A stretch of 64,000 nt of DNA from Clostridiales bacterium. Lineage in GTDB: Bacteria > Bacillota > Clostridia > Oscillospirales > Oscillospiraceae. Made by a program: the position numbers and the translations under genes. This document shows positions 25,892 to 35,634 of the stretch, in pieces. The stretch is taken from NCBI GenBank assembly GCA_014799475.1, contig JAAVHX010000017.1:130102-194101 (forward strand), written 5' to 3'. Below the pieces are notes generated by a model. The model did not search any database, had not been told where the DNA came from, and was given only the letters and a program-made list of their open reading frames with translations. Within the stretch, counting starts at the first letter, position 1. Each line of letters opens with the position of its first letter.

Positions 25892-27424
25892 TCAATGACT
25901 CCCGCCCCCCCGCCGGGGCTGCTCCTTTAAATATGCCCCGGCGTCCTTGAAAAAGCCGGCGGCGATGAGGACGATGACCGCCCCGATGGGGAAGGCGGCG
26001 ATAATGCTCACCGACTGGAGGCTGCTCATGGAGCTGTCGGAGAACACGAGGGCGATGGGCAGGGCGATGAGGAGCAGGCACCACATCAGCTTCACCGCCC
26101 AGTGGGGGGACTCATCCTGTCCCAGCCTGCGGTAGCTGTAGCAGGAGGCGATGAGGGCGATGGAGTCGAAGGAGGTGGCGTAGAAGGCCACCATGGCGGC
26201 CAGCACCAGGACAAGAACCAGCACCGGGCAGGGCAGGGTCTTTATCATGGAGATGATGAGGGCGTACAGGTCGCCCGTCTCGTTGTACTGGGCGATGAAG
26301 TCCGCCGCTCCGGACATCTGCTGGCCCAGGGAGTAATTGCCCAGCACGATGAAGCTGACAATGGTGGAGCCCACCCCAAAGCCGTAGCCCCCCAGGATGG
26401 TCTGCCGCACCGTCCGCCCCCGGGAGATGCTGCCGATGAAGAAGGGGGCGGCCACGCACCACACCATCCAGTACGACCAGTAGAAAATCGTCCAGTTCTG
26501 GGGGAAGGAGGTGGCGCGCTGGGGGTCGGTAAAGGTGGCCAGCTCGAAGAAATGCCCGATCATCCGGCCCAGGGCCTCCAAGCCAGTCTCGATGATGTAC
26601 CGGGCCTTGCCGCCAAAGAGCAGCACATAGGCCAGCAGGCCGAAGAACAGCCAGATGCAGGACTTGGCCAGCAGGCTGATGCCCTTGAAGCCGTGGAGCA
26701 GGGAGTAGGTGTACACCGCGCAGGTGGCCGCCAGGATGAGGACGGTGACCAGCTCCCGGCTCAGGGGGATGTGGAACAGCTCGTCCAGAATGCCCGCCAT
26801 CAGCGGGGTGGCAAGGCTGAAGGTGGTAGACGTCCCCGCCAGCAGGGCGAACACCGCCAAGAGGTCGATGAACCGGCCCGGTACGCCGTCGGTGTGCTTT
26901 CCCAGGATGGGGCGGCAGGCCTCGGAGTACCGCTGCCGCTCCCGGCGGCGAACGTGGAGCATGAAGCCGAACGCCGCCGCCAGCATGAGGTAAAACCCCC
27001 AGGGGATGAGGCTCCAGTGGAAGATGGGGAACACGCTGGCCCAGTCCTGGACAGAGCCCAGCTCAGCGATATGGGGATCCACGGCGTACAAAATCCACTC
27101 GGAGAAGGAGTAGAACAGGATGTCCGCCGCCAGCCCCGCCGTGAACATCATGGAACCCCAGGTGAAAAAGGAGTATTTGGGCCGTTCCTCCGGCCCGCCC
27201 AGCACGATGCCCCCGTATTTGGAGAGGGCGGCGAACAGGGACAGCAGGAACACGCCCAGCCCGATGATGAGGTACCAGACGCCGAAGGTGTCCCCCAGCA
27301 GGAAGCGGATCTGGCCCAGCACCTGGTTGGAGCGCTCCGGGAAGGCGAGGAACAGCGCGCTCAGGGCCAGGATGCACCCCAGGGGGGCCAGGGTGATGGC
27401 CCAGTCGATTTTCTTCCGCTCCAC
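25892..27424 (-). CDS. BCCT family (betaine/carnitine/choline) transporter
   Basis: 510 aa, GSMMFTAGLAADILFYSFSEW, TIFYWSYWMVWCVAAPFFIGSISRGRTVRQ. Confidence 0.9.
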   Translation of the reverse strand: MERKKIDWAITLAPLGCILALSALFLAFPERSNQVLGQIRFLLGDTFGVWYLIIGLGVFLLSLFAALSKYGGIVLGGPEERPKYSFFTWGSMMFTAGLAADILFYSFSEWILYAVDPHIAELGSVQDWASVFPIFHWSLIPWGFYLMLAAAFGFMLHVRRRERQRYSEACRPILGKHTDGVPGRFIDLLAVFALLAGTSTTFSLATPLMAGILDELFHIPLSRELVTVLILAATCAVYTYSLLHGFKGISLLAKSCIWLFFGLLAYVLLFGGKARYIIETGLEALGRMIGHFFELATFTDPQRATSFPQNWTIFYWSYWMVWCVAAPFFIGSISRGRTVRQTILGGYGFGVGSTIVSFIVLGNYSLGQQMSGAADFIAQYNETGDLYALIISMIKTLPCPVLVLVLVLAAMVAFYATSFDSIALIASCYSYRRLGQDESPHWAVKLMWCLLLIALPIALVFSDSSMSSLQSVSIIAAFPIGAVIVLIAAGFFKDAGAYLKEQPRRGGGSH

Positions 27425-27425
27425 G

Positions 27426-28148
27426 TTACTTCACCTCGTCCAGATACGTTCGGTAGCTGGGGTCCAGCGCCGCCAGCTCGGCCAGGCTGTCCACCTCCGC
27501 GATGTCCCCGGCTTCCATGGGGAACACCCCCAGCCGGTACTCTTTGGGATAACAGAACAGCGCCACATCGTCCCAGTAGATGTCCCGGCTGTGCCGTCCC
27601 TCAAATTCGATCTCCAGGTGTCGCCTGAGCCGCCGGCCGTCCTGGGCGCTCCACCGGGAGACGCTGTAGAGCTGCCAGCCGTGTTCGCCCCCGGTGCGGC
27701 TGCACGAGGACACCACGCCGTCCTCCACGGTGAGCAGCCACTCGTCCGTGGGAGCGTCCGTCCAAACGGCGTTGTAGCCGGAGCGCTCAAACTCTGGGGC
27801 CAGCACCCGGGGGTCGCGGATGATGAGGTCCGCGTCGGTGATGATGGCGTCCTCCAGGTGCTCCCGGGCGGCGTAAAGAGAGGAGATGTTGTTGCAGGTA
27901 TTGTACCAGGGGTTTTCGATGAGCGTTACGCTGGGGTATTCCCGCTCCAGGACCTTGAACTGCTCCTTGAGGTAGCCCACGACAATGTAAATCTCATGGA
28001 TCCCGTTTGCCATCAGGCCTTGTATCACGGTGTCGATCATCCGCGTGCCGTTGACCCGCACCAGGGACTTGGGGGTGGTCAGGGTGACGGGCCGCATCCG
28101 CTTGCCCTCCCCGGCGGCTACGATGACGGCCCGCTTGGCGGTGTTCAT
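27426..28148 (-). CDS. nucleotidyltransferase, LicC-like (choline-phosphate cytidylyltransferase candidate)
   Basis: AVIVAAGEGKRMRPVTLTTPKSLVRVNGTRMIDTVIQGL; adjacent to LicA-like kinase and BCCT transporter. Confidence 0.85.
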   Translation of the reverse strand: MNTAKRAVIVAAGEGKRMRPVTLTTPKSLVRVNGTRMIDTVIQGLMANGIHEIYIVVGYLKEQFKVLEREYPSVTLIENPWYNTCNNISSLYAAREHLEDAIITDADLIIRDPRVLAPEFERSGYNAVWTDAPTDEWLLTVEDGVVSSCSRTGGEHGWQLYSVSRWSAQDGRRLRRHLEIEFEGRHSRDIYWDDVALFCYPKEYRLGVFPMEAGDIAEVDSLAELAALDPSYRTYLDEVK

Positions 28149-29113
28149 GGCAATGCCTCCCCCAGACGCTCCAGCTCCCGCCGGACGATTTCGCAGTAGT
28201 CCCGGGCGTAGCGGTACTGGGCCAGGGAATAGGCCCCGAACTCCACCCCCAGGGAGCGTTTGTATTCGCACCAGTTGCTCCACAGCAAACCGCACACGGC
28301 GATGTAGCCGTAAATCTTGATCCGGGTCAGCGGGGGACAGCCCCCAATGAAATACTGGTCGATGAGCTTGTCCGCCTGCTCCCGGCCGTACATGGCGTAG
28401 ATGCAGAACATGGCGATGTCCACATGGGGGTCCTGCATGGCGGCGTACTCCCAGTCGATGAGGCGGATCTCCTCCTGCCCTTGCCCGTTCTGGAAGAACA
28501 GGAAGTTGTCCGGCACGGCGTCGATGTGGGTGAGTACCTTTTTCCCCGCATGGGCGTCCAGGAAGGGCTTTAAGCGGAACACGCGCTCCTTGGTCTCCCG
28601 GTAATCGGGATAGGCGGAGGGCCGGCCATCCCACAGGGATTCGTAGAAGTCGATGTGGCCGAACAGGTCGAATTCGTGGTCTGCCCGGAGCCCCAGCCCA
28701 TGGAAAGAGCGCAGCTTGTCCATACAGGCGGCGGTTTCCCGCCCATTCATGGGGTCGCAGGTGCGGGCGCCTTCGATGAACCGGGAGATCTTGTAGCCGC
28801 TGTCCGGGTCGATGTAGAGCACGTCCTCGCACAGCCCACGGCCCTGGATGAGACGGTACACCGCCGCTTCCGACCGGCGGTCGATGAGCCGTCCGGTGCC
28901 CTCCCCGGGGACGCGCATGATGTATTTCTCCCCCCGGCAGGAGAAGAGGAAGGAGCGGTTGGTCATGCCCTTTTTCAGGGCGGAGACGCCGGTGACCTCC
29001 TCCGGATCGGCGCGGAGCACCGTCCCGATCACCTCCAAGTCGTGGGGGGTGAGCAGGCCGAACCGGGCGGTATCCGCCGGGGCCCGGAAATTGTCATGAG
29101 CTTGTGTGTTCAT
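28145..29113 (-). CDS. choline kinase, LicA-like (phosphotransferase/APH fold)
   Basis: KKGMTNRSFLFSCRGEKYIMRVPGEGTGRLIDR; LTHIDAVPDNFLF; RLIDWEYAAMQDPHVDIAMF. Confidence 0.88.
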   Translation of the reverse strand: MNTQAHDNFRAPADTARFGLLTPHDLEVIGTVLRADPEEVTGVSALKKGMTNRSFLFSCRGEKYIMRVPGEGTGRLIDRRSEAAVYRLIQGRGLCEDVLYIDPDSGYKISRFIEGARTCDPMNGRETAACMDKLRSFHGLGLRADHEFDLFGHIDFYESLWDGRPSAYPDYRETKERVFRLKPFLDAHAGKKVLTHIDAVPDNFLFFQNGQGQEEIRLIDWEYAAMQDPHVDIAMFCIYAMYGREQADKLIDQYFIGGCPPLTRIKIYGYIAVCGLLWSNWCEYKRSLGVEFGAYSLAQYRYARDYCEIVRRELERLGEALP

Positions 29114-29191: not shown

Positions 29192-31300
29192 CTACCGCCC
29201 AATTTCCCCGCCGGACGGGCTGTGGGAGGCGATTTGGCCGGGATAGCGGCGCTCCAGGCGGTGGATGATATACTGGGCCCCCGCCTGGCCGCTGCGGCCC
29301 AGGTTGTAGAAATGCTGCTGTTTCAGCGCGGCGATGCGCTCCTTGTAGTCCTCCTGATGGGCCAGCAGCTCCTCCACCACGGGGGCCAGGTTTTTGACCT
29401 CGTCCTTTTCCACCTGACGGCCCACCTTGGGGCGGGCGGTGATGTCAAAGGGGACCAGGGGGATCTTCTGCCAGTCCTCGTTGACCACCTTCATCTGGGT
29501 GTTGATGAACAGGGAGGGCTTATCGGTGGTGAAGGAGAACTCGAAGGCGATGCCGCTCCAGTCGGTGATGACCAGGTCGGCGGTGTACACCGTCACGTTG
29601 GAGGAAAAGTCCGTCTCAATGATAAAGTCGTCTCCCACCTTGTCCTGATACCGCTGGATGATCTCCTTCATCCGCGTGGGGAACCGGCGCACATACTGGG
29701 GATGGGGCCGGATGACGATGCGGTATCCCCTGCCGCACAGGGCGTTTACCAGGTCGTCCAGGCAGGAGTCCATGATGTTGTCGTACTGCCAGGAGGGGGC
29801 GATGAGGATGGTCGTTTTCTCGTTTGACCCCTTGTCCATGGCGGTATACGCGGCGATCATGTCGTCGATGAGGCCGTAGCCGCACTCGATGATCCGCTTT
29901 TTCTTCACGTGCCGCAGCTTCTCAATGGCCCGGGCCTCAATGGCCTGCTCCCGGCTGACCACCAGCAGGGTGTCGTAGGCGTCCAGCGCCCCGGTGCGGT
30001 AGGCCAGGTTGTCGCTGCTGCACCCGTGGTCCATAAAGACATACTCCACGTTCTCCTTCACCCGGGAGCGTTTGATGTGGTATTTTTCCAGGTCGGGGGT
30101 GGTCATCACCACCATGTCCGCCTCCAGCTTCATCATCAGGGAGATCAGCCGGGTCTCGTCCACGTAGTAGGGCCGGATGCGGGGCTCGTTTTTCTGGAAG
30201 ATGGCGTCCTCCGGGTCGCTGGTGACATAGTGGATGGTCAGATCGGTGTTTTTCAGCAGCGCCTCGATGAGGGCGCTGAAATACTTGTAGAACCCGCTGC
30301 CCTCGGAGTAGAACATGATCTTCATGTTCCCCTTGTTTTCCTTGGAGAAGAACTCCTTGTAGTACTTCTTGGCCAGGGCGGCGTTTTGCCTCTTCCGCTC
30401 CCGATCCTGGGCGGCGGAGCGCTTCATTTCCTCCAGCAGGGCGTAGTCGATGTACTGCTTGGGGGAGTAGACGGCGTTGCACAGGAACATGACCCCGATG
30501 GAGAACAGGTTGCCGAAGGTCCAGTACAGCCCCACCCCCGCCGGGACGATAAAGGCGAAGAAGGTGGAAAAGGCGATCATGAACAGGGTCATGCCCCACT
30601 GGGACAGCTTGTTCTGCTCGATTTGCAGCACGTTCACCTTGTTCTGCACCCAGCACATGACGAGGGCGGACAGCCCCGCCAGCACCGGGATGAGGAACAG
30701 GGCATCCAGAGTGCGGACGCTGGGGGTCTCGGCCAGGTTGATGCCGAAGAAGGTCATACGCAGATCCTGGATCCGGGCAATGGCCTCCGCCGAGCCGGGG
30801 ATGGAAGCAAAGGCGTCCGGCATGGCCCGCACCCGCTCCACCACGGAGAGCTGGGCGGTGGAGCCCAGCTCGTCCACCGTCACCGACATGAGCTGGGCGG
30901 TCTGGGCCACAAAGGCCCGCTGGAGCTCCGGGGTCAGGTGGAGGATGTGTTTTAAGGGCTTGTACACCACGTCCAGCAGGCCCAGGATGATGGGCAGCTG
31001 GAGCAGCAGGGGGATGACCCCCGCCATGGGGTTATAGTGCTCCTGCTTGTACAGGGCGGATTGGGCGTCGATGAAGGCGTCGCTGTCGTCCACATATTGA
31101 TAGCGGAGCATATCCAGCTGGGGCTTCATCTTCACCATTTTGATCGAGTTTTTCTGCACCAGCAGGGAGATAGGGAACATGACCGCCTTGGTCAGCAGGG
31201 TGAAGGCCAGGATGGCGATCCCGTAGTTGCGAAACAGCCAATAGCAGCCGTACATCAGCCAGCCAAGCGGCGTCCCAATGATCGTATTGATGAGTTCCAT
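29192..31300 (-). CDS. fusion protein: YidC/Oxa1-type membrane insertase domain + CDP-glycerol glycerophosphotransferase (TagF-like) domain
   Basis: N-term FRNYGIAILAFTLLTKAVMFPISLLVQKNSIKMVKMKPQLDML...GVGLYWTFGNLFSIGVMF (YidC); C-term MKIMFYSEGSGFYKYFSALIEALL...YVFMDHGCSSDN...RPHPQYVRRFP...VITDWSGIAFEFSFTTDKPSLFI (glycerophosphotransferase). Confidence 0.88.
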   Translation of the reverse strand: MELINTIIGTPLGWLMYGCYWLFRNYGIAILAFTLLTKAVMFPISLLVQKNSIKMVKMKPQLDMLRYQYVDDSDAFIDAQSALYKQEHYNPMAGVIPLLLQLPIILGLLDVVYKPLKHILHLTPELQRAFVAQTAQLMSVTVDELGSTAQLSVVERVRAMPDAFASIPGSAEAIARIQDLRMTFFGINLAETPSVRTLDALFLIPVLAGLSALVMCWVQNKVNVLQIEQNKLSQWGMTLFMIAFSTFFAFIVPAGVGLYWTFGNLFSIGVMFLCNAVYSPKQYIDYALLEEMKRSAAQDRERKRQNAALAKKYYKEFFSKENKGNMKIMFYSEGSGFYKYFSALIEALLKNTDLTIHYVTSDPEDAIFQKNEPRIRPYYVDETRLISLMMKLEADMVVMTTPDLEKYHIKRSRVKENVEYVFMDHGCSSDNLAYRTGALDAYDTLLVVSREQAIEARAIEKLRHVKKKRIIECGYGLIDDMIAAYTAMDKGSNEKTTILIAPSWQYDNIMDSCLDDLVNALCGRGYRIVIRPHPQYVRRFPTRMKEIIQRYQDKVGDDFIIETDFSSNVTVYTADLVITDWSGIAFEFSFTTDKPSLFINTQMKVVNEDWQKIPLVPFDITARPKVGRQVEKDEVKNLAPVVEELLAHQEDYKERIAALKQQHFYNLGRSGQAGAQYIIHRLERRYPGQIASHSPSGGEIGR

Positions 31301-31343: not shown

Positions 31344-31844
31344 TCATTTCCGTGGGGCGGTGCAGATGTGCAGGGCCCGCTTCAGCTCCTCCACCTTTTT
31401 GCGCTCCTCCGCCAGCAGGCGGCGCAGCTCCCGGTTTTCAGCGGCCAGGCCGCCCTCGCCCCCCGTCTCGTCAAAGGGGTCGGCGGGAGTGTCGGGAAGG
31501 GAGACAGGTTCCGTCGCGTATGCCCGCTCCGCCGCCGGGGCGGGGGAGGGGGAAGCCTGGGCCTGGGGGGCGGCGGGCTCCAGCTCGTAATCGCCGTAGC
31601 CGGTGTCGTCATCGTCGTCCATGGCATAGGACTGGAGGCTGGCGCGGCTGCTCCGGCCCTTGGAGAATTTGCGCTTCAGTTTGCGCAGGTAGAAGCTGAA
31701 GCCCGCGCCCGCCGCGATGGCCACCCCCGCGATAAGCTGGATCATATAGGTCATGGCGGACGGGTCGATATAGGCGGATACCGTCGCCGGGGACAATGGC
31801 CGCCCACGGACCAAAAGGCAGGTGAACAGGGCAAGTGTGTTCAT
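31344..31844 (-). CDS. small membrane-anchored protein with C-terminal coiled coil
   Basis: SAMTYMIQLIAGVAIAAGAGFSFYLRKLKRKFSK TM anchor; C-term ENRELRRLLAEERKKVEELKRAL. Confidence 0.7.
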   Translation of the reverse strand: MNTLALFTCLLVRGRPLSPATVSAYIDPSAMTYMIQLIAGVAIAAGAGFSFYLRKLKRKFSKGRSSRASLQSYAMDDDDDTGYGDYELEPAAPQAQASPSPAPAAERAYATEPVSLPDTPADPFDETGGEGGLAAENRELRRLLAEERKKVEELKRALHICTAPRK

Positions 31845-31860
31845 GGAGTGACCTCCTATT

Positions 31861-33666
31861 TTACCAGACGTGGGGTTCTAGCGGGGTGAGCTGGGTCAGG
31901 TTCCAGTTGGAGAAGTCGTTGCCGTCCCCGCGGATCACGTAGGTGCCCATATACGCGTCCCGGGTGGTCAGGGCCTCGTCGTACAGCAGCATCCAGAAGG
32001 TGCGCGTCATATCCTCGTCCTCGCCGATGGACTCGATGGTCCGGCCGTATTTTGCGGTGTCCAGCCCAAACCACCCGGCGATGGAGGCCCGGAGGTTGTC
32101 CTGGCAGATCTGCTTGTGGGACAGCGCCATGGGCTGGCTGGTGTCGGCGTGGGCGGGCTTGATGAGCAGGGGGAGCAGCCGGGGGCCGTCCAGGCGGCTC
32201 AGGCCCTGGGTGGTGGTGGTCCAGCCGTCCGCCGACCAGTCGGGGTAATCGGCGGCGTGGTCGGTGGTGATGACCACGGTGGTGTCGTCATAGACGCCCT
32301 TTTCCCGCAGTTCGTCCAGGTATTGGAGGATCATCTCCATATTTCCCACCATCTGGTCGTGCTGGCCCGCGGAGTCCCACCTTGTCTCCACCCGCTCCGC
32401 CGTCTCGCCCATGTTGAAGGGGTAGTGGGCGCCCTGAAGATGGTAGAAGCGGAAGCACCCGGTCAGCTGGTCGCTGACGCTCAGGCCCTGGGCGCGGTAG
32501 CGGGCCCAGAATTCAGGGTCGTCGATCTGGTAGAGATCTCCGCTGGGGGCGGTCTGGACCGCGTCCAGGTCGCCGGTATAGAGCTGGAAATAGGGCTTGA
32601 GGGCCTCCGGCGCGTAGCGGTAGGCGGACAGTTCCAGCATTTTTGTCAGCATGATCCGGCGGCTGTAGCGCACCGTGCTCTGGCCGATGTTGTCGATCTT
32701 GCCCTCCACGTTGTCCATCTCGCCAACCACGTCGCCCACGTGGGAGTAAAGCCCCACCTGACAGCCCGTATCATGGAGGTCGGACAAAAAGGAGGAGCGC
32801 CCCCACGCCCGGCGGAAATAGTCCCGCTTGCGGATCTCGAAGGGGGCGGCGTCATCGTCCCGGACGCCGGTGAGCAGGTAGGTGACGGAGGCATAGGTGC
32901 GGCTGAAGCTGCCGGTGAAGTCCTGATAGCTGGTGAAGCCGCCCAGCTCCGCCTCCCACTCCGGGTGCTGGGCGATCAGGTCGTCCAGATAGGAGCGGTC
33001 GCAGCGGTCCAGCAGAAAGACCACCACATTCTGAGAGGGAGCAAGCTCAAAAATGCCCTGGGTGGAGAGATAGCGCTCCTGGAGCGCGGAGAGGTTAGTG
33101 GTATTCATCAGGCTAAAGAGGGCCACCGCCTGCATCGCCGCCAGCAGCAGGGACACGGTTTCCAGCGTCCGCGTCCACAGCCTCCGGCTGAAGTACAGCA
33201 GGAGGAACACGGCTCCGATGACGATCATCCAGACCACAAGGTTCTTCAGCATGGTCCCCCTGTAGTTCTGCCACGTCACCGAGGTGCCGTCCAGCGTGCC
33301 GTGATCCACGTTCCAAAAGTTCCCCTGGAGGTAGCCCGCCAGGGTTACCGCGAAAAGGAGGGACACGGCGTAATTGAAGGGTTTGCCCCGGAGCAGCAGC
33401 AAAACAGCCAGCAAAACGGCAAAAATCCCCAGCCCCGCCAGCGCCAGGACAGGCGCCAGCAGGCTGAAGGGAAAGGTCATATCGCCGGTATTTTGCAGAT
33501 ACAGCTCACAGGGGCCAAAGAAGATGAACGTGAACACGCAGTTCAGCGCACAGGCGGCGGCAAGGAACAAGCGGGTCCGAAAGGCCCGCTTGTCCATCCA
33601 AAGCGCGCTCCATTTTCTGCCGACGGAAGCTTTCAGCTCTTGGAGCATAGGATCGGTTCCTCCCAA
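31861..33666 (-). CDS. sulfatase/alkaline-phosphatase-superfamily membrane protein
   Basis: N-terminal TM segments; NVVVFLLDRCDRSYLDDLIAQHPEW; DDTTVVITTDHAADYPDWSADG. Confidence 0.75.
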   Translation of the reverse strand: MGGTDPMLQELKASVGRKWSALWMDKRAFRTRLFLAAACALNCVFTFIFFGPCELYLQNTGDMTFPFSLLAPVLALAGLGIFAVLLAVLLLLRGKPFNYAVSLLFAVTLAGYLQGNFWNVDHGTLDGTSVTWQNYRGTMLKNLVVWMIVIGAVFLLLYFSRRLWTRTLETVSLLLAAMQAVALFSLMNTTNLSALQERYLSTQGIFELAPSQNVVVFLLDRCDRSYLDDLIAQHPEWEAELGGFTSYQDFTGSFSRTYASVTYLLTGVRDDDAAPFEIRKRDYFRRAWGRSSFLSDLHDTGCQVGLYSHVGDVVGEMDNVEGKIDNIGQSTVRYSRRIMLTKMLELSAYRYAPEALKPYFQLYTGDLDAVQTAPSGDLYQIDDPEFWARYRAQGLSVSDQLTGCFRFYHLQGAHYPFNMGETAERVETRWDSAGQHDQMVGNMEMILQYLDELREKGVYDDTTVVITTDHAADYPDWSADGWTTTTQGLSRLDGPRLLPLLIKPAHADTSQPMALSHKQICQDNLRASIAGWFGLDTAKYGRTIESIGEDEDMTRTFWMLLYDEALTTRDAYMGTYVIRGDGNDFSNWNLTQLTPLEPHVW

Positions 33667-33731: not shown

Positions 33732-35270
33732 TCAGGCAAAGTGCTCGACGTAGTAGGGAGAATATTTGGCGATCTCGTAGTCCAGGCTCTTAAAGCCCAT
33801 GCGTTCGGAGAGGGTGTCCTGATCGGAGAACAGGTTTACGCCAAGGCCCAGGCGGTCCCCCTCGATGTCAAAGCCCATGGCGGCCAGAATGGTGGGATAA
33901 TAGTCCAGTGTGGAGAATTCCCGGTTCTGGCGGCGGCTCACGTCCGGAAGCGGACAGGCGAGGTTCAGGAAGCAGTTGTACACCGTCCTGTTATAATACT
34001 CCAGGCCCTCCACCAGATTGGTGTCCATTCTCGGGTGGTCGCCCAGGACAACGATCACGGTGTCCTCATAGAAATCCTGCTGGGAGCACCACTCAAGGAA
34101 CTCGGCGATCTGCCGGTCGGCGCAGGCCACCACGTTGGCGGTCTGATTTTCATACTCGCTGCCGCACAACTCGCAGACATATCCGCCGATGTGGTGGGTG
34201 TCCACCGTCAGCATGGTGAAGTTGAAGGGTTGGTCGTCCTCGGCCAGCTTCAGCAGCTTGTCCTTGGCGATTTCGTACAGGATCTCGTCCTCAATGCCCC
34301 ACCAGGCGCGGTAATCCTCCGGGAAATAGCCCTCGTCTCTGGTGCTGAAGTAGTCGCAGACCTCGTAATTGCCGTGCTGCTCAAAATACTTCTTCCGCCC
34401 GGCAAACTCCCCGTCGGAGCCGCACAGGAACAGATTGCGGTACCCGTTTTTCTCCAAAATCTCGCCCAGGCTGACGCAGCCGGAGGCAAAATACTCCTGC
34501 TCGCCCATGTCGTTGTCCGCGATGGGGAAGGAGAAGGGGATGCCGGAGGTAGAGGACAGCAGAGCCGCCATGGTCCAGTTTGTCCCGGTGCCCGAGTGGG
34601 AGCCGCCCAGCAGCGTGGAGTTGGAGAAGGAGCAGTTCTCCTGGGCCAACGCGGTGAGGTTCGGGATATAATTGACCGGCTGCATCCCGCCCGCCTCCCG
34701 GGAGGCATAGGTGGTCTCCATGCTCTCCAGGTAGATGCAAAGCAGGTTCTTTTTCCGCCTCGGCGCCGTGATGCGCACGCTGTTGGGATCGACATAGTGC
34801 CGCTCATAGAGGGTGGAGGCGTCCGAGCGCAGCTTGGCATAGCCCAGGACATCCAGGCTGTCGTTCACGAATTTGCAGGTGTTGAGCAGGGAGAGCAGGG
34901 CGAACAGCGTCATCAGATGCCGCGCAAGGCTCAGCAGATCGACGCCGCGGCGCCAGCGGAACACGCTGACATTCGCCGTGATGACAACACGCCGCTGGAG
35001 GAGCAGGCACACCGTGCCGGCCAGGATAAACAAGGCCAGCACGATCAGAGAGGGGATGCAGGCGACCACCCCGTCCACCACGACGCCCAGCTCACTGCCG
35101 TCCAGGGGGGAAGCCATGGTGTACAAAATCTGCTGAAGGGTCACATCAAAGGTGGCGTTGACCCAGGCGGTGACGCCGAAGAATATGGCCGCCACCGCGA
35201 AGAGGATGCAGCTGATGACCAGCTCCACCACACGCCCGACGTGCTTTTTACCGGTTTTTTGCTTCTTCAT
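33732..35270 (-). CDS. LTA synthase / MdoB-like phosphoglycerol transferase family membrane protein
   Basis: NLLCIYLESMETTYAS...GSHSGTGTNWTMAALLSSTSGIPF...DTVIVVLGDHPRMD. Confidence 0.85.
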   Translation of the reverse strand: MKKQKTGKKHVGRVVELVISCILFAVAAIFFGVTAWVNATFDVTLQQILYTMASPLDGSELGVVVDGVVACIPSLIVLALFILAGTVCLLLQRRVVITANVSVFRWRRGVDLLSLARHLMTLFALLSLLNTCKFVNDSLDVLGYAKLRSDASTLYERHYVDPNSVRITAPRRKKNLLCIYLESMETTYASREAGGMQPVNYIPNLTALAQENCSFSNSTLLGGSHSGTGTNWTMAALLSSTSGIPFSFPIADNDMGEQEYFASGCVSLGEILEKNGYRNLFLCGSDGEFAGRKKYFEQHGNYEVCDYFSTRDEGYFPEDYRAWWGIEDEILYEIAKDKLLKLAEDDQPFNFTMLTVDTHHIGGYVCELCGSEYENQTANVVACADRQIAEFLEWCSQQDFYEDTVIVVLGDHPRMDTNLVEGLEYYNRTVYNCFLNLACPLPDVSRRQNREFSTLDYYPTILAAMGFDIEGDRLGLGVNLFSDQDTLSERMGFKSLDYEIAKYSPYYVEHFA

Positions 35271-35634
35271 TGTAGGGCTCCTCTTCTGGTTTGCTGATTT
35301 GTCCTGCGTCTGCTTCACTGCCGCTGTCCAGCCGGGTGATGTCCAGGCTGATCCGAATGTGCTTCGCGGCCCTGAAGAGCAGGGTGAGCAGCCAGGCGGC
35401 CAGCAGCGCGGCCAGGGTGTAGTGGGCGGAATCCACGGAATAGGAGAGGCCCAGCACCTTCTGGGGGACCGTCAGCAGCATCCGCGCCAGCGCGTAGTTG
35501 CAGCAGACGGTGATGCCGTATTGGACCAGGAACTCCAGAGACGGCTCAAAGGGCTTCCCCCGCCTTTTAAAATACAGATAGATGGACAGCATGGGGGCAA
35601 AGAAAAGATTGATAAAAATGGCCAGTTGAATCAA
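35248..35634 (-). CDS. small multi-TM hypothetical protein
   Basis: 128 aa, 3 predicted TM, translationally coupled to the LTA-synthase-like gene. Confidence 0.65.
   Translation of the reverse strand: MIQLAIFINLFFAPMLSIYLYFKRRGKPFEPSLEFLVQYGITVCCNYALARMLLTVPQKVLGLSYSVDSAHYTLAALLAAWLLTLLFRAAKHIRISLDITRLDSGSEADAGQISKPEEEPYNEEAKNR

Follow-up and report, generated by a model that had tools for sequence, protein, structure and literature searches.

The window analysed here, a 64,000-nucleotide stretch of a contig from a gut bacterium of the Clostridiales, carries on its minus strand an open reading frame of 702 codons without interruption (31300 to 29192), whose product joins a YidC/Oxa1 domain to a TagF-like transferase domain. 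The first-pass annotation had read this single frame, without giving a strand, as a fusion of YidC with a member of the glycerophosphotransferase family, and the fusion proved genuine: both Pfam domains lie over their gathering cut-offs, with 60KD_IMP (PF02096) at residues 26-275 (30476..31225, minus strand; 118 bits, E 5e-34, cut-off 35) and Glyphos_transf (PF04464) at residues 324-664 (29309..30331, minus strand; 50 bits, E 3e-13, cut-off 22.1), and the motifs quoted at the time (MDHGCSSDN, RPHPQYVRRFP and VITDWSGIAFEFSF) are all present. Since the same architecture occurs at full length in 80 public loci, a frameshift, an assembly mis-join or a similar artefact is ruled out. The AlphaFold2 model of the protein (pLDDT 89.5, pTM 0.71) places YidC-like long helices first, then a linker helix, and a GT-B domain last.

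The genes around the fusion lie on the same strand, and many of them recur with it across the 81 loci counted here, namely the window locus and the 80 others. Immediately upstream is a gene for a small membrane protein whose transmembrane helix is directly preceded by a YIDP motif (sml3; 31344..31844), homologues of which are found near the fusion in 37 of the 81 loci. It is preceded by a gene for an AlkP-superfamily membrane transferase with N-terminal transmembrane helices (31861..33666), which is near the fusion in 50/81 loci. This AlkP protein has five invariant residues (T257, D220, H414, D469 and H470), and its model (pLDDT 89.8) matches the folds of PbgA/YejM, MCR-1, LtaP and LtaS; among 60 related genomes, a homologue is present in eight of the nine that bear the fusion and also in G031, whose contig stops 135 bp past the AlkP gene. 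A second AlkP protein, of the LtaS/OpgB-like phosphoglycerol-transferase type (33732..35318), adjoins this group of genes, is conserved in the closest relatives only (a neighbour in just 4 of the 81 loci), and its membership in the unit is uncertain. Downstream of the fusion follow a choline kinase-like protein of the LicA type (28145..29113; PF01633/PF01636), a MobA-like nucleotidyltransferase that we read as a LicC-type cytidylyltransferase (27426..28160; PF12804/PF00483), itself a recurrent neighbour, and a BCCT transporter, probably for choline uptake (25892..27424; PF02028, 396 bits; a neighbour in 15 loci as clustered). Judged by this context, the kinase and carrier would be specific for choline and the nucleotidyltransferase for CTP. 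The lic-type set is thus complete, its three genes adjoining one another in an operon-like block with the fusion, and homologues of the kinase occur in only 6/60 related genomes, each time beside the fusion. Two further neighbours were seen in other loci. A signal peptidase I gene, missing in the window, is near the fusion in 20 loci (e.g., L042, 9393-9968), often between the YIDP gene and the fusion, and the YIDP protein of such loci has a signal-peptide-like start and is a possible substrate. In Ruminococcus-related loci (L095, 8623-9891, and six others), a divergently oriented lipoprotein-type gene adjoins the fusion, and its product (cluster c7) is presumably CapA-like.

The 80 further full-length loci, identified by a scan of GTDB species genomes, encode proteins of 41-95% identity and are spread over three phyla, Bacillota, Actinomycetota and Spirochaetota, with carriers in Clostridia, Erysipelotrichaceae, Coriobacteriales, Eggerthellaceae, Bifidobacteriaceae and Treponema. 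Most of them come from metagenome-assembled genomes, and cultured carriers include Clostridium aminobutyricum and Bittarella massiliensis. This spread is patchy: the fusion is present in 8 of 36 relatives of the window's genus and in one genome of another family, and at E 1e-60 it was found in only five of the 388 genomes drawn from the class, the window's own among them. When compared with 20 canonical YidCs, the YidC halves of the fusions form one clade (SH-aLRT 100).

What varies between these loci is the set of genes that would supply an activated headgroup. Choline kinase genes are found in 23 of the 81 loci, phosphonate genes in 4, a PLP-enzyme together with a nucleotidyltransferase in 6, PhnW-like genes in 2 and a nucleotidyltransferase alone in 7, and the donor type changed at least nine times on the tree of the fusion. 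The phosphonate modules comprise phosphonopyruvate decarboxylase (TIGR03297), an iron alcohol dehydrogenase and a PEP mutase (TIGR02320) in one chain with cytidylyltransferase domains; elsewhere, the replacement is a protein that combines a nucleotidyltransferase with a CobD/HisC-like enzyme, or else a PhnW-like aminotransferase paired with a cytidylyltransferase-like protein. Donor genes can differ even within a genome: G015 encodes two fusions, with a phosphonate operon behind one and a LicC-like gene behind the other. The property that these modules have in common is a CMP-linked headgroup. No recognised donor gene was found within 6 kb in 39/81 loci, many of which are on cut contigs, nor in 20 of the 59 loci with at least 4 kb of downstream sequence, which counts against the reading proposed below. 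Donor genes are enriched within 5 kb of the fusion relative to 5-10 kb, a comparison that is partly circular, as the query genes were picked from the same neighbourhoods, and that we do not use as proof. In a few loci (L077, 7181-8539; L078; L091), a protein that combines a CTP_transf_like domain with a GFO/IDH/MocA oxidoreductase domain is encoded beside the fusion and suggests some CMP-linked group.

In the TagF-like half, H425, R531-P-H533-P and D580-W-S582 (the latter within T579-D-W-S) are invariant in 75 sequences, and the best fold match of the modelled GT-B domain is S. aureus TarL with CDP-ribitol (8va1). A profile search with the C-terminal domain alone returned no TagF from the PDB and only one chance match, and a phmmer search with the same domain likewise returned no TagF match. 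The genome of the window, which is 87% complete, yielded neither a further PF04464 gene nor a LicD gene (PF04991), the fusion itself does not match LicD, and most fusion-bearing relatives in the genus are also without LicD. Because the window genome has no LicD, the TagF-like domain is its best candidate for a phosphocholine transferase. The donor is most likely CDP-choline, and in relatives CMP-phosphonates or other CMP-headgroups, rather than CDP-glycerol.

As for the YidC half, it has five predicted transmembrane helices, matches YidC structures in PDB profile searches (4utq, 3wo7) and scores 110.8 bits against the NCBIfam YidC model TIGR03592 (cut-off 84.3). The first-pass annotation had drawn attention to a lysine where YidC proteins usually carry the groove arginine. 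This lysine (Lys38) is indeed present, but it is shared by 22 of the 26 canonical YidCs compared and by 79 of the 81 fusions (the other two have Arg, so that the position is basic throughout); it is thus ordinary for clostridial YidCs, and we give the substitution no weight as a diagnostic oddity. Seven polar residues are invariant and specific to the fusions, namely N51, Y89, Q101, Q219, N220, N264 and N275. By predicted helices and topology, not by a three-dimensional structure, most of them are placed on the cytosolic side, where the transferase must sit. A canonical yidC was found elsewhere in the genome (46 contigs), in an rnpA-yidD-yidC-jag block, where the first-pass annotation had advised to look; the fusion is therefore not the genome's only YidC.

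A search with the C-terminal domain alone also revealed relatives, in other Clostridia, in which the same domains are joined differently. In one genome (G304), a 430-aa protein consists of a transmembrane segment with the motif YIDPGTGSM followed by a TagF-like domain, and it adjoins a 912-aa protein which joins YidC to a sulfatase (AlkP) domain, with the domains of both proteins over the Pfam cut-offs. This permuted pair occurs twice on one contig, once by phosphonate genes and once by BCCT, LicC and LicA genes; by the latter, there is also an MttB-family methyltransferase with a likely corrinoid protein (L127, 11009-14853). Seven further YIDP-TagF-like proteins were found in ten regions that we read, most of them directly adjoining a YidC-AlkP gene, and all nine have the RPHP motif and a YidC-AlkP protein close by. 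The YidC-AlkP proteins, present in 11/388 genomes of the class, measure about 860-940 aa and are often in tandem beside the YIDP-TagF-like gene (L126, 5623-9646; L127, 5269-9314; L142-L146; L150). The YIDP segment at the head of the permuted TagF-like protein is related to that of the small protein in the window; profile comparison gives this similarity weak scores (best E 1.5e-4, with most values above 0.01), and it also rests on position and topology. As regards a common origin of the two types of YidC fusion, an AU test gave p 0.52 on very long branches and so favours neither a shared nor a separate one. The same four parts are thus joined in two ways, as AlkP, YIDP and YidC-TagF or as YIDP-TagF and YidC-AlkP, and both arrangements lead to the same predicted topology, with the transferase inside and the AlkP domain outside. 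When domains swap fusion partners, this is classically taken to mean that they work together, and its occurrence here argues that the AlkP, YIDP, YidC and TagF-like parts do so. At the groove position, the YidC-AlkP proteins have N, Q or S in 15/15 cases, the basic residue being absent, which argues against classical insertion in the permuted form.

We propose, with a probability of about 0.6, that the fusion is a membrane-bound headgroup transferase acting in one machine with the YIDP and AlkP proteins, and that its YidC half is the membrane core of this machine and perhaps a conduit. The proposal builds on what the sequences show: a conserved fusion, donor genes that are linked to it and replaced between loci, permuted fusions and conserved active-site residues. 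Which donor and acceptor are used, in what order the steps run and what YidC does we infer as follows. Choline would be imported by the BCCT carrier and turned into CDP-choline by the adjacent kinase and cytidylyltransferase, and the cytosolic TagF-like half would then move phosphocholine to a membrane acceptor, either a lipid or a lipid-linked glycan. The YidC half would hold this acceptor next to the active site, and the acceptor's headgroup might cross the bilayer through the YidC groove. The outward-facing AlkP enzyme, which would form one complex with the fusion and the small YIDP protein, could, like MCR-1/EptA or LtaS, take the headgroup from the lipid and pass it to an envelope polymer, while in relatives the machine would be fed with phosphonates or other CMP-linked groups. 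The AlkP enzyme might also work independently. A conduit role is physically plausible given that insertases, E. coli YidC among them, scramble lipids in vitro, and scrambling by YidC has been proposed as an overlooked role (PMC10491306); it is from this in-vitro activity that we extrapolate. The more ambitious idea, that a YidC-family domain which once inserted proteins now moves lipid headgroups, in a relay from the inside to the outside by which choline, phosphonates or other groups are put on the envelope, is possible and we put it forward tentatively. That the YidC module serves an envelope enzyme as a membrane platform or in the handling of lipids, much as the first-pass annotation suggested, remains the best reading, with CDP-choline taking the place of CDP-glycerol as the most likely donor and with a machine of four parts.

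This reading has to be weighed against others. In one of them, the YidC half does no more than anchor the transferase, which, like the LicD of pneumococci, would act at the cytosolic face and decorate a glycan linked to undecaprenyl or DAG. Export of the product would then fall to an ordinary flippase or ABC transporter, and the AlkP enzyme would add another group outside. PF04464 enzymes usually bind membranes peripherally, and some relatives of the fusion sit in polysaccharide clusters that also encode ABC-2 transporters, glycosyltransferases and UDP-sugar enzymes, both of which are in keeping with an anchor. However, an anchor would not need a complete YidC domain of five helices in which polar residues (N51, Y89, Q101, Q219, N264 and N275) are invariant and specific to the fusions, and a YidC domain is joined to an AlkP enzyme as well in the permuted form; we consider it rather doubtful that anchoring is all there is to it.

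Nor do we favour a true TagF/TagB-type enzyme which uses CDP-glycerol to prime or extend poly(glycerol-phosphate), with the choline genes modifying that polymer by another route. Membership in PF04464, the LtaS/OpgB-like genes nearby and an unlinked TagD-like cytidylyltransferase gene at another place in the genome (98 bits, short of the cut-off of 165 bits) speak for it, but the genome offers no alternative choline transferase of the LicD type, relatives have CMP-phosphonate modules in place of the choline genes and the C-domain profile found no TagF in the PDB, which makes poly(glycerol-phosphate) synthesis by the fusion unlikely. Another possibility, raised in the first-pass annotation, is that the YidC half serves as a dedicated insertase or chaperone for the neighbouring AlkP and YIDP proteins, fused for co-assembly. 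While these neighbours are membrane proteins and the groove residue stays basic in all window-type fusions, a canonical YidC is at hand in the genome, an enzyme replaces the usual free cytosolic tail and the permuted form has lost the basic residue, unlike insertases; with this loss in particular weakening the case, we regard it as very unlikely.

The transferase machine is uncharacterised as far as the literature could be searched, and its donor pathways are of known kinds. In line with the earlier remark that no characterised protein joins the two domains, we found no paper describing either type of YidC fusion in the open-access literature searched. The fusion is a widespread, unstudied protein whose C-terminal enzyme probably decorates the cell surface with phosphocholine, or with phosphonates in relatives. 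A conserved, swappable unit of four parts is a concrete candidate transferase for CMP-activated phosphonates, whose later tailoring steps and route onto surfaces have been called enigmatic (PMC6697681). The fusion is also a natural test case for tasks of YidC-type domains other than protein insertion, and suggests that such domains have found a second use in the decoration of bacterial envelopes.

Each part of the unit has counterparts in known systems. With the YidC/Oxa1 insertases (SpoIIIJ, YidC2 and E. coli YidC), the fusion has in common the 60KD_IMP domain, the five-helix core and the basic groove residue, but it differs from them in being joined to a GT-B transferase, in forming its own clade and in its fusion-specific invariant residues. 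Its C-domain resembles the CDP-polyol phosphotransferases TagF and TarL (PF04464) in the GT-B fold and the HG and RxHP motifs, whereas its sequence is too far for a PDB profile match and the genes linked to it activate choline or phosphonates instead of making CDP-glycerol or CDP-ribitol. The AlkP protein has the N-terminal transmembrane helices, outward AlkP domain and invariant threonine and metal ligands of LtaS, OpgB, EptA/MCR-1 and PbgA; unlike them, it belongs to a unit with YidC and a CMP-headgroup transferase, and is fused to YidC in the permuted form. Choline uptake, kinase and cytidylyltransferase are also found in the Lic system of pneumococcus and Haemophilus (LicA, LicC, LicD), but at the window locus LicD is missing and the YidC-TagF-like protein stands in its place. 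Finally, the Pnt phosphonyl tailoring clusters (PMC6697681) fuse PepM to cytidylyltransferases and activate phosphonates with CMP, as some of the fusion loci would do; in the neighbourhoods shown for them, the paper points to LicD-like phosphotransferases or glycosyltransferases, whereas in the fusion loci the candidate transferase is linked to YidC.
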